A stretch of DNA of 33,639 nt from assembly GCA_021820975.1 (NCBI GenBank), contig JAKADA010000011.1:32804-66442 (forward strand), in the 5' to 3' direction. Origin of the DNA: Bacillota bacterium (GTDB taxonomy: Bacteria > Bacillota > Bacilli > Alicyclobacillales > SLC66). A program made the translations under genes and the position numbers. Positions 25,441 through 32,391 of the stretch are shown here, in pieces. The notes beneath the pieces were generated by a model. It saw only the letters and a program-made list of their open reading frames with translations, was not told the origin of the DNA and did not search any database. How positions within the stretch are numbered: the first letter of the stretch is position 1; each line of letters starts with the position of its first letter.

Positions 25441-26865
25441 TCACAAAAATTTGCGTTGAACGCGATTGCCATCATAGGAAAAAAGGATATTTCGCCCCTC
25501 TAAAACCGTTTCTAAGTGCACCGGACGACCCCATAACTTAAAAACATGTGGCAACGTCTTTTCACTATACTTCACGTCAAGTTCCATGCCTTCGTAGGCG
25601 TGTTTTAGATACAATTCTCCCGTCATCTGATAATCTCCATCCATCACATAAAGTACAGGATAACCGCCATTGGTCCGACTCGCACACAATTTGTCACGCA
25701 CTTTTCGCCAGTCCTTTTCCACAATACGCCACTCATTACCAACCTTTTGATAGAGAAACAGATCCAATTCTTCAATCAAATCTTGCGTCAAATAGTTGCG
25801 CAAAAAAGAAGCATCGGACTCCATCTCGCGAACTTCAAACATTTGCTGTCGGCCTATATTACCCTCAACATGATATCGATCATGGCGCTCACCTGTTGGC
25901 ACATCATACTCTTTTTCAATCGCTTCCCAGATCTTTACGCCAAGTAAATAAGGATTGATATGCATCCGTGATGGTGCAGTTACTAAAGCATTGGTTCTGG
26001 AATAATCAATGGCCTCAGCAGCTGTCAAATCAAGTTCGCGCATGATGCGCTGATGCCAAAACGTTGCCCATCCCTCATTCATCACCTTTGTTTCAATTTG
26101 CGGCCAAAAATACAGCATTTCCTCGCGCAAGACAGTTAGAATATCACGTTGCCAATCCGTTAGTGTTTTGCTGTTATGCACAAGAAACAACAAGAGATCT
26201 TTTTGCGGCTGTTGTTTATTCATAGGTTTTTCCTGCTTTGGTTCCGTGGATATCCGCTCATCTAAGGAAAAAAGATCAGCATAAGGGCTCAGTTGACGTT
26301 TGTCTTTACTTACCTCTTTTTGCTGTTCATTAGATAGCCGTGCCAAGTGTTTTTGACGTGCTGTTTCAGACGGATCGATGTGTTCTTGAATCGCTAGTAC
26401 CGAGTCAAGAAATTCTTCAACGGCAGCTTTTCCATACTGCATTTCATACGAACGAAACCGTTCTGCACTTGCAGCCATGCTGTCGACCATGTTACGAGGA
26501 GTGTGCCGAAACATGGCATTATTCTTAAAGAAGTCGCAATGAGCTAGCACATGTGCACACACCATCTTATTTTCAACAAGCGAGTTGTTATCAAGCAAAA
26601 ATGCGTAACACGGATCGGAGTTAATCACGAGTTCATAAATGCGACTCAATCCCAAATCATAGTCCAGCTTCATTCTGTGGTATGATTTACCAAATGTCCA
26701 ATGAGAATATCGAGTAGGCATACCTTGATAAGCCCCAAACGTATAGAGCACATCGACAGGCACAACTTCAAAACGCATATCGTAAAAATCAAGGCCAAAT
26801 TCCCGCGCCAATTCAACCATATAATCGATTGACTGTTCAAGTTCAAGCAACTCTGCGGAAGTCAT
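25441..26865 (-). CDS. spoVR: Stage V sporulation protein R
   Basis: A 474-residue member of the SpoVR family (B. subtilis SpoVR 468), needed in the spore cortex stage. Landmarks are 'REFGLDFYDMRFEVVPVDVLYTFGAYQGMPTRYSHWTFGKSYHR', shortened as start and end words REFGLDFY and HWTFGKSY, then 'NSDPCYAFLL', 'HVLAHCDFFKNN', 'NEGWATFWH' and 'MHINPYLLG'. Its ATG lies inside an ATGA overlap with the stop of yhbH, and its ribosome site CAGGAGGTG is made of the last yhbH codons. In the present chromosome only the 3' scrap of yhbH precedes it, with an element in between, so its normal upstream promoter is cut off by 4.4 kb. Confidence 0.95.
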   Translation of the reverse strand: MTSAELLELEQSIDYMVELAREFGLDFYDMRFEVVPVDVLYTFGAYQGMPTRYSHWTFGKSYHRMKLDYDLGLSRIYELVINSDPCYAFLLDNNSLVENKMVCAHVLAHCDFFKNNAMFRHTPRNMVDSMAASAERFRSYEMQYGKAAVEEFLDSVLAIQEHIDPSETARQKHLARLSNEQQKEVSKDKRQLSPYADLFSLDERISTEPKQEKPMNKQQPQKDLLLFLVHNSKTLTDWQRDILTVLREEMLYFWPQIETKVMNEGWATFWHQRIMRELDLTAAEAIDYSRTNALVTAPSRMHINPYLLGVKIWEAIEKEYDVPTGERHDRYHVEGNIGRQQMFEVREMESDASFLRNYLTQDLIEELDLFLYQKVGNEWRIVEKDWRKVRDKLCASRTNGGYPVLYVMDGDYQMTGELYLKHAYEGMELDVKYSEKTLPHVFKLWGRPVHLETVLEGRNILFSYDGNRVQRKFL

Positions 26866-27019
26866 AACACACCTCCTGAGGCACTTTGAGACGGACCAAA
26901 AAACGTATGCAAGGAACGATATATGTCCGCCTTTTCGCGAATGATGGCATGTCGGAACAAAGGTGTGTGAATATGCCGATAGGCATTCATCAATGTGCTT
27001 GCTCGGTTATACTGATTGA
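26862..27019 (-). CDS. yhbH: 3' exon-like fragment of yhbH (last 51 codons)
   Basis: The minus-strand frame from 27017 to 26862 has no start codon of its own with a ribosome site. It reads NQYNRASTLMNAYRHI, then a run ending in HTFFGPSQSASGGVL and TGA. This is the missing C-terminus of the YhbH protein encoded at 31354-32391: YhbH of B. subtilis continues GEVNQYN with RHSTLM..AY..I and a 'FF' near the end. The first 14 bases of this fragment are the repeat shared with the other end of the element. Only after excision would it be translated. Confidence 0.93.
27006..27019 (+). repeat. Left attachment-site core (attL)
   Basis: GTTATACTGATTGA, identical to 31363-31376. The flanking bases differ on both sides (CG before and G after here; GA before and C after there), so the shared core is exactly 14 bases. 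Confidence 0.92.
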
Positions 27020-27047
27020 GCCATCCTAGCTATACACCAAAAAGACG

Positions 27048-31319: not shown

Positions 31320-31353
31320 TGTGGTATACACTGCAAACTCATGATCGTAGATA

Positions 31354-32391
31354 TCATGGTGAGTTATACTGATTGACCTCTCCATAGCCAAACAGATTGG
31401 AAACATCCATCAACTGATGCACCAATTGCACACATTTGTCATTGTCCGATGTTAGATTGTCTCCATCGGAAAAATGCACTGGGTAGATGTTGTAACGATC
31501 AGGTGAATACTTCGTTTCAATAAGATCAAGAGCAAGTTTATAAGCTGATGAACAGATCGTACCGCCACTTTCACCTTTTGTGAAAAACTCTTGTTCGGTA
31601 ACAACCTTCGCCTCCGTGTGATGTGCGATAAACTGAATATCAACCGTTTGATACTTCGTGCGTAAAAATCGCACCATCCAGAAGAAAAATGTTCGTGCCA
31701 CATACTTTTCAAAAGTTCCCATGGAACCGGACGTATCCATCATCGCCAAAACGACAGCTTGAGAATGTGGCTTTTCGATATCTTCCCACGTTTTAAAGCG
31801 AAGATCATCAAGTCTGATATCGTGTAATCCGGGCTTGCCGGCGCGCGCGTTTCGCAAAACATTTTCCAAAATGGTACGCTTTTTGTCGATATTACTTTGC
31901 AGACCTTTTTTGCGTACATCTTTAAACGAAATATCTTCAACCGTGATGTCCTCTGGGGACTTCTGTACTAAATTAGGCAATTGCAAATCAGCAAATAGCA
32001 ACTCTTGGATCTCATCAACTGACACCTCAGCCTCATAGTAATCAGCACCAGCTTGATCACCTGCACCTGAATCGTGTCCTGCTCCCTTTTCCGAAGAACC
32101 ATCCTTAGCGATCACATCCCCGATCGCAGAGTCACCATCACCCTGACCGGTTTGCTGACTTTTGTTGAAATTATACCGAAAATGAAACTCATCTAGCGAA
32201 CGAATTGGAATTTTAACGACCTGCCTGCCATCCGTCATAATAATGCCTTCCTCGCTGATCAGATCAGCAAGGTTTTTGCGGATGGCCTCCCTTACCTTCT
32301 CTTGGTGACGAGCCTGATCTTGTTGTCCTTTTCGATGCAGACTCCAATCATCCCTGCTTATAAGAAAGGAAGTATCGCCCACGGTGAACAT
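31354..32391 (-). CDS. yhbH: 5' part of yhbH, interrupted at codon 343 (sporulation protein, DUF444)
   Basis: 345 codons, the last two (Ser, Pro) and the stop being element sequence. The remaining 343 match YhbH: ISRDDWSLHRKG at residues 11-22, 'KIPIRSLDEFHFRYN', the metal-site motif DTSGSMG at 219-225 as in von Willebrand type A folds, 'FIAHHTEAKVVTE', 'KGESGGTICSS', 'HFSDGDNLTSDN' and NLFGYGEVNQYN. B. subtilis YhbH has 392 residues; here translation stops ~47 residues early. The truncated product lacks the final helices and may be inactive. ATG 32391 is very close to AGGGG; GTG 32382 is better spaced. Family partner of PrkA and SpoVR. Confidence 0.95.
   Translation of the reverse strand: MFTVGDTSFLISRDDWSLHRKGQQDQARHQEKVREAIRKNLADLISEEGIIMTDGRQVVKIPIRSLDEFHFRYNFNKSQQTGQGDGDSAIGDVIAKDGSSEKGAGHDSGAGDQAGADYYEAEVSVDEIQELLFADLQLPNLVQKSPEDITVEDISFKDVRKKGLQSNIDKKRTILENVLRNARAGKPGLHDIRLDDLRFKTWEDIEKPHSQAVVLAMMDTSGSMGTFEKYVARTFFFWMVRFLRTKYQTVDIQFIAHHTEAKVVTEQEFFTKGESGGTICSSAYKLALDLIETKYSPDRYNIYPVHFSDGDNLTSDNDKCVQLVHQLMDVSNLFGYGEVNQYNSP
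31363..31376 (+). repeat. Right attachment-site core (attR)
   Basis: GTTATACTGATTGA, identical to 27006-27019. On the minus strand it encodes the end of the shared residues N-Q-Y-N of YhbH (with V before). Confidence 0.92.

Follow-up and report, generated by a model that had tools for sequence, protein, structure and literature searches.

Sporulation genes that have been described as interrupted by intervening elements include sigK, spoVFB, spoVR, spsM, gerE, kamA, and yabG, and the corresponding elements are skin (sigK), vfbin (spoVFB), vrin (spoVR), SPbeta (spsM), gin (gerE), phi3T (kamA), and yin (yabG) (PMC5595907, PMC4191935, PMC6957869, PMC10747680). An interrupted sigK has also been reported in A. 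acidoterrestris (PMC13141910), and for yin, excision in a fraction of the cells has been found at every time point (PMC10747680). In this study, we describe a stretch of 33,639 nucleotides (hereafter the window; GCA_021820975.1, contig JAKADA010000011.1, positions 32,804 to 66,442) from a member of the Bacillota (Alicyclobacillales, SLC66), in which the gene yhbH is split by a 4,357-bp element carrying a large serine recombinase. In B. subtilis, yhbH appears in a paper on the mother-cell programme, with SpoIIID bound near it (PMC517825), and sporulation defects have been reported for a prkA mutant of another Bacillus (PMC13001217). YhbH has been listed among the genes within prophage regions of P. 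larvae (PMC9341999). Interrupted spoVR is already in print. Searches of the open-licence literature on intervening elements, prophages, and recombinases turned up neither an interrupted yhbH nor an interrupted prkA. An earlier reading of the window from its letters (the original prediction) did not count yhbH among the known interrupted genes.

The split gene and its element comprise the following features, numbered from the first base of the window:

26862 to 27005, minus strand: C piece of yhbH, last 47 codons and stop, the stop overlapping the start of spoVR (ATGA)
27006 to 27019: 14-bp direct repeat GTTATACTGATTGA, copy at the C piece
27006 to 31362: intervening element, 4,357 bp including one repeat copy
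29790 to 31319, plus strand: large serine recombinase, 509 amino acids (PF00239, PF07508, PF13408), with an alternative ATG start at 29799
31363 to 31376: 14-bp direct repeat GTTATACTGATTGA, copy at the N piece
31363 to 32391, minus strand: N piece of yhbH, codons 1-343, the frame going two codons further to a stop at 31354

The N-terminal open reading frame (ORF; 31354-32391, minus strand) runs to ...GEVNQYN and then reads SP and a stop. The two copies of GTTATACTGATTGA are identical, with a start-to-start distance of 4,357 bp, and the pieces joined via one copy give 1,173 nt, that is, 390 codons in a single frame. The recombinase ORF ends 43 bp from the repeat. The original prediction had proposed precisely this arrangement, namely an in-frame split of yhbH by an element of about 4.36 kb, with both breaks at the same 14-base repeat and a large serine recombinase beside one of them. 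It had also named in advance a second intact yhbH as one result that would refute it. Searches of this genome, which is 92% complete and comprises 2.47 Mb in 84 contigs, revealed no further copy, as the sole match to PF04285 is the N piece and the matches of the joined YhbH protein are confined to the N and C pieces. The N piece is of the sporulation type, since it scores 540.8 bits against TIGR02877 (spore_yhbH, NCBIfam; cut-off 467.95), covering positions 1-334 of the 371 in the profile. When the C piece was compared over 45 codons with two intact relatives, the proportions of nonsynonymous differences (pN) were 0.225 and 0.313, and those of synonymous differences (pS) were 0.888 and 0.796. 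The element does not provide a replacement gene end, as gene-sparing prophages do, and the N piece stops two codons into it.

To place this split among relatives, yhbH, prkA, and spoVR were searched in the genomes of the family (18) and of the order (59). In total, 61 splits could be mapped and joined in 33 of the 59 order genomes, and they fall in six places of the prkA-yhbH-spoVR operon, with none elsewhere:

yhbH-A, codon about 343: 16 splits
yhbH-B, codon about 224, inside the DTSGS motif: 17 splits
prkA-325, codon about 325: 9 splits
prkA-543, codon about 543: 2 splits
spoVR-60, codon about 60: 10 splits
spoVR-268, codon about 268: 7 splits

All 61 joins yield open frames that match intact homologues. 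As an in-frame rule was imposed in choosing the join points, the frame by itself is not independent evidence, while the match to intact homologues is. The cores common to both sides of the splits measure 2-18 bp (median 5). Both halves lie on one contig in 56 of the 61 cases. The elements in these cases range from 2,540 to 135,144 bp, 23 measure less than 5 kb, and elements as small as 2.5 kb still carry a recombinase. At yhbH-A, the element has 8.2 kb in G048, and an element of 9.0 kb splits the same site in G017. The largest gaps, of 131.6 kb (G058) and 135.1 kb (G019, between the halves of spoVR), may each hold more than one element. Records of their recombinases identify G048 as Alicyclobacillus cycloheptanicus, G047 as A. 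tolerans, G058 as Alicyclobacillus sp. SO9, G017 as Sulfoacidibacillus thermotolerans, and G001 as Ferroacidibacillus organovorans. Two genomes (G002, G007) have five splits each and another (G001) has four mapped ones, and yhbH is in three pieces in G001, G002, G007, G047, G051, and G058. Splits at yhbH-A in G048 and G058, and at yhbH-B in G035, G037, G042, and G050, occur in assemblies of one or two contigs. Kept outside the 61 are the prkA of G000 (element unassembled), the yhbH of G010, G011, G014, and G056, the spoVR of G009, and the cases of G005 and G030, in which the gene runs off a contig end. The original prediction was right about the split yhbH, and it missed both the split prkA of the window and the operon-wide pattern.

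Two observations on these genomes stand by themselves. In G030, the spoVR-60 core marks the precise end of two contigs, C43 and C56 (L213, L214), which read jointly as an unbroken spoVR, as if the assembly had broken at a site present in two forms. At first sight, G012 contains both an intact and a split prkA; these copies differ at 16 of 689 bases, and the case was taken as strain variation and rejected as an example of two forms of one locus.

The recombinases follow the sites. That of the window holds Resolvase, Recombinase, and Zn-ribbon domains, matches the phrog_95 integrase, and has YokA (SprA) of SPbeta as its nearest solved sequence (residues 12-490, E 3.5e-53). A YLRKSR motif, whose Ser is presumably the catalytic serine, is near-invariant across 13 of its relatives. 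A tree was built from 62 distinct recombinase ORFs of at least 400 amino acids (three fragments below 400 were left out), each labelled with the nearest mapped gene boundary, which may be up to 7 kb away; the spoVR-268 label of G009 was set by hand, and those of G010 and G011 were taken from their yhbH neighbours. The 62 proteins form six clades, one per site, with 5 site changes on the tree, the minimum possible; shuffled labels required a mean of 37.1, and none of 200 shuffles was as low as 5. Placement and orientation are also fixed at two of the sites: the yhbH-A recombinase is located at the N side and faces the gene, and that of yhbH-B lies on the C side, on the strand of the gene. Small ORF families accompany the recombinases at yhbH-A (12 genomes), yhbH-B (12 genomes), and spoVR-268 (8 of 8), and their position and conservation make them candidate recombination directionality factors.

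The remaining features of the element in the window are these:

27085 to 27843, plus strand: cargo, ABC transporter ATPase (PF00005)
27840 to 28868, plus strand: cargo, ABC-2 type permease (PF12698, PF01061)
28869 to 29495, plus strand: cargo, TetR-family regulator (PF00440)
29492 to 29683, minus strand: ORF of 63 amino acids in divergent orientation to the recombinase, a candidate for the directionality factor
29767 to 29774, plus strand: CATACAAT, preceding the recombinase and resembling a sigma-E -10 element

The cargo genes and the recombinase are all on the plus strand, opposite to the operon. The 63-amino-acid ORF had no match in NCBIfam or PHROGs; it is related to the small ORFs found next to the yhbH-A recombinase in 12 genomes, and it may encode the recombination directionality factor. 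The recombinase and the product of this small ORF are also on record in a further contig, which measures 101,236 bp.

Wherever selection could be measured, purifying selection was evident in the gene pieces flanking the splits, as judged from ratios of nonsynonymous to synonymous substitution rates (dN/dS) in pairs aligned under protein guidance (prkA-543 offered no unsaturated pair). For yhbH-A, the four closest pairs gave 0.028, 0.044, 0.052, and 0.052 in the C piece, which the element separates from the start of the gene, and 0.013-0.031 in the N piece. For yhbH-B, values were 0.014, 0.020, and 0.028 in the three closest pairs of the C piece and 0.019-0.104 in the four closest pairs of the N piece, and the medians over all unsaturated pairs were 0.115 and 0.139. 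Ratios were also low at prkA-325 (0.018-0.079), spoVR-268 (0.024-0.066), and the spoVR-60 C piece (0 to 0.058). Those of the spoVR-60 N piece (median 0.203, maximum 0.347) say little, given that this piece includes DNA upstream of spoVR.

A natural control is provided by a second, diverged yhbH, with 45-51% identity to the query, which is present in 12 genomes. Elements split none of its 13 copies (that of G042 has an in-frame break in place), versus 8 of the 11 main yhbH copies of the same genomes (Fisher p = 2.2e-4). All six paralogues tested score below the TIGR02877 cut-off (399.6-431.6 bits), and three copies of the main type reach 540.8-572.1. Interruption therefore goes with the sporulation-type gene.

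The yhbH-A arrangement extends beyond the order. Among the matches listed there were 220 class-level genomes, and stretches of 10 in which the yhbH match ends at residue 343-362 were fetched. In all 10, counted from unjoined pieces, a recombinase closest to the yhbH-A type (34-55% identity) has the same placement, at the N side and facing the gene, within 150 bp of the break in eight of them and at 1.5 kb (G105) and 1.8 kb (G244) in the others; the other half of yhbH was within the fetched stretch in 2 of the 10. The closest of these relatives are Effusibacillus pohliae and Fodinisporobacter ferrooxydans. Public viral contigs gave no match when scanned with the single recombinase sequence, whereas an alignment used as query did match. 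Related integrases were found in 146 contigs, and in 8 of the best 80 of these, the N part of yhbH lies beside the integrase. These prophage integrases are 38-41% identical to the first sequence of the query alignment. In seven of the eight, yhbH is full length, its end lying on the phage side of the site, and in one (L297) it is truncated at codon 343. In contig L260, a displaced yhbH end begins at the site, and in L311, codon 543 is where prkA is cut. These sites are thus in use by prophages, some of which bring a spare gene end, and such phages are the likely ancestors of the splitting elements.

Some named organisms show related arrangements. Evansella, Shimazuella, and a Bacillus have an intact yhbH and, 2-5 kb downstream, a second copy of its end (L134:15185-15322, L136:13394-13519, L145:16366-16608), which begins at the codon 343 site A in L134 and L136; no recombinase was found near these three copies, which look like the product of a gene-sparing or decayed element. 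A prkA starting at residue 315 is found outside the order in Aneurinibacillus thermoaerophilus (L126:8922), and a spoVR ending at residue 59-60 in Paenibacillus sp. 32352 and P. alvei DSM 29 (L111:11313, L149:11328), all near the sites described here. A recombinase scan of the best 80 of 517 named loci found none; this set is biased to intact yhbH and was thus not used as a sample.

In the window itself, yhbH is flanked by the other two genes of the operon:

25441 to 26865, minus strand: spoVR, unsplit (PF04293; one full-length match)
32451 to 33489, minus strand: C-terminal part of prkA, split at about codon 325 (PF08298 from position 276, PF06798)
33490 to 33639: 150 bases of other DNA before prkA, to the contig end, taken as the end of a second element

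The 150 bases have no other match in this genome. The prkA frame of the window (32451-33482) lacks about its first 324 codons, and the missing N part is found in the terminal stretch of contig C83. This contig reads through the prkA break, shares exactly 77 bases (L006:1-77) with the window, and then stops. Such an exact overlap indicates that the reads likely held both the intact and the interrupted prkA junction, and it may be the trace left at a fork by a de Bruijn assembly with k = 77. The window contig and C83, joined without the prkA element, would measure about 100.2 kb, and the 101,236-bp contig mentioned above may carry an uninterrupted prkA. With respect to sigK, the gene is unbroken in this genome (TIGR02846, 334.6 bits, over the curated cut-off). 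Half-length sigK-like matches that end or start near position 110-126 occur in G011 (C112, C140), G010 (C137), and G014 (C110), which suggests putative skin-like splits of sigK.

We consider it highly probable that the 4,357-bp element is a skin-like, sporulation gene-intervening element, which is excised via the 14-bp repeats to leave an intact yhbH in the mother cell. This was also the original prediction, and it gains support from the recurrence of the split at the same codon, from joins that resemble intact homologues, from selection on both pieces, and from a recombinase clade specific to the site. The fixed placement of the recombinases at yhbH-A and yhbH-B, their retention in elements of only 2.5 kb, the absence of element splits in the paralogue, the two prkA junction forms of this assembly, and the over-cut-off sigK of this genome also speak for it. 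In this model, the serine recombinase would recombine the two repeats and restore the whole yhbH, with excision timed to the sporulating mother cell; as the mother-cell genome is discarded, the spore would keep the element. Before excision, the cell would make a YhbH without its last 47 residues, and because the start of spoVR overlaps the stop of yhbH, spoVR would be cut off from the upstream promoter of the operon. As prkA would need a second excision, the operon would be rebuilt by two recombinations. Extended to the relatives, it seems fairly likely that prkA-yhbH-spoVR is stored in pieces, with six fixed sites, a recombinase clade for each, and up to five mother-cell excisions acting as a developmental lock.

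Several points weigh against this model. Neither an excised yhbH junction nor a circle was seen; the prkA junction alone appears in two forms in this assembly, and a strain without the element would give the same double form. Many relatives have no split at all, so interruption is not needed for the operon. The yhbH-A medians of dN/dS over all unsaturated pairs are higher, at 0.224 (C piece, 25 pairs) and 0.118 (N piece, 21 pairs). In 12 of the 61 joins, the two best join points have equal scores, which leaves the exact crossover open there. Regarding the promoter, CATACAAT, which we take to be the sigma-E -10 consensus, has no good -35 upstream of the window recombinase, and CATANNNT shows no enrichment in front of recombinase genes (12 of 61 versus a shuffle mean of 7.3). 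CATACAAT occurs in 3 of 61 versus a shuffle mean of 0.2, and the sigma-E box was dropped as general evidence for being weak.

Among other explanations, the one to be taken most seriously, though still unlikely, is that excision does occur, but in a fraction of the cells and in response to growth phase or stress, with no mother-cell programme. The weak sigma-E promoter evidence, the two prkA forms, which fit a mixed population, and the partial excision of yin from yabG at every time point (PMC10747680) are in line with it, whereas the known related elements are tied to sporulation (PMC5595907, PMC4191935, PMC6957869) and the split copy is the sporulation-type gene and not the paralogue. This last fact also counts against the notion that a selfish mobile element inactivated a dispensable yhbH, leaving the pieces as relics, with excision serving only the transfer of the element. 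That notion can draw on the prophages with related integrases at the same yhbH site and on G003, in which yhbH is absent and hence losable, but both pieces are under purifying selection in relatives, many genera have the site occupied, and even small elements there have retained their recombinase; we regard it as improbable.

It is very improbable that the truncated, 345-residue YhbH is functional and that only the C piece is a relic. Although no more than the last 47 of 390 residues are removed, purifying selection acts on the C piece in close pairs, the yhbH-B break cuts the DTSGS motif mid-gene, and 7 of the 8 prophage contigs with the N part of yhbH keep a full-length gene end. Finally, an assembly artefact might be invoked for a draft of 84 contigs, yet splits at the same site occur in relatives assembled in one or two contigs and the element proteins are recorded on the second contig of 101,236 bp, so that this option deserves practically no credence.

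Judged against the open-licence literature searched, the probable gene-intervening element in yhbH described here is new, and so are yhbH as a target gene and an operon with six sites and many elements. Published gene-intervening elements have been described, in the accounts available, one gene at a time, and here a single operon is the repeated target. The pattern is seen in organisms that have been cultured and in genomes assembled into one or two contigs, and several questions can now be tested, such as why these elements gather in mother-cell genes, whether the excisions follow an order, and how phages become fixed gene switches. Moreover, the pairs of recombinase and site constitute a natural set of site-specific integrases.

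As for the described systems, the yhbH element shares with them the position inside the frame of a sporulation gene, the short direct repeat, the large serine recombinase, and the predicted in-frame rejoining of the gene, and gin offers a precedent for a small element without phage genes. It differs in its targets, yhbH and prkA, and in the presence in relatives of six sites per operon, up to five elements, and a yhbH in three pieces; furthermore, the yhbH element is described here from its sequence. The prophages at the same codon of yhbH also have a related integrase beside the gene, and 7 of 8 keep it full length, with 1 of 8 (L297) truncated as in the window. SprA (YokA) of SPbeta, the nearest solved recombinase, itself belongs to a gene-intervening element (PMC4191935), but it is distant in sequence and uses another attachment site, in spsM. 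Finally, vrin, in the spoVR of Geobacillus thermoglucosidasius C56-YS93, also hits the third gene of this operon (PMC4191935); in contrast, spoVR is split at two sites in the relatives studied here, and the likeness noted is that of the target gene.

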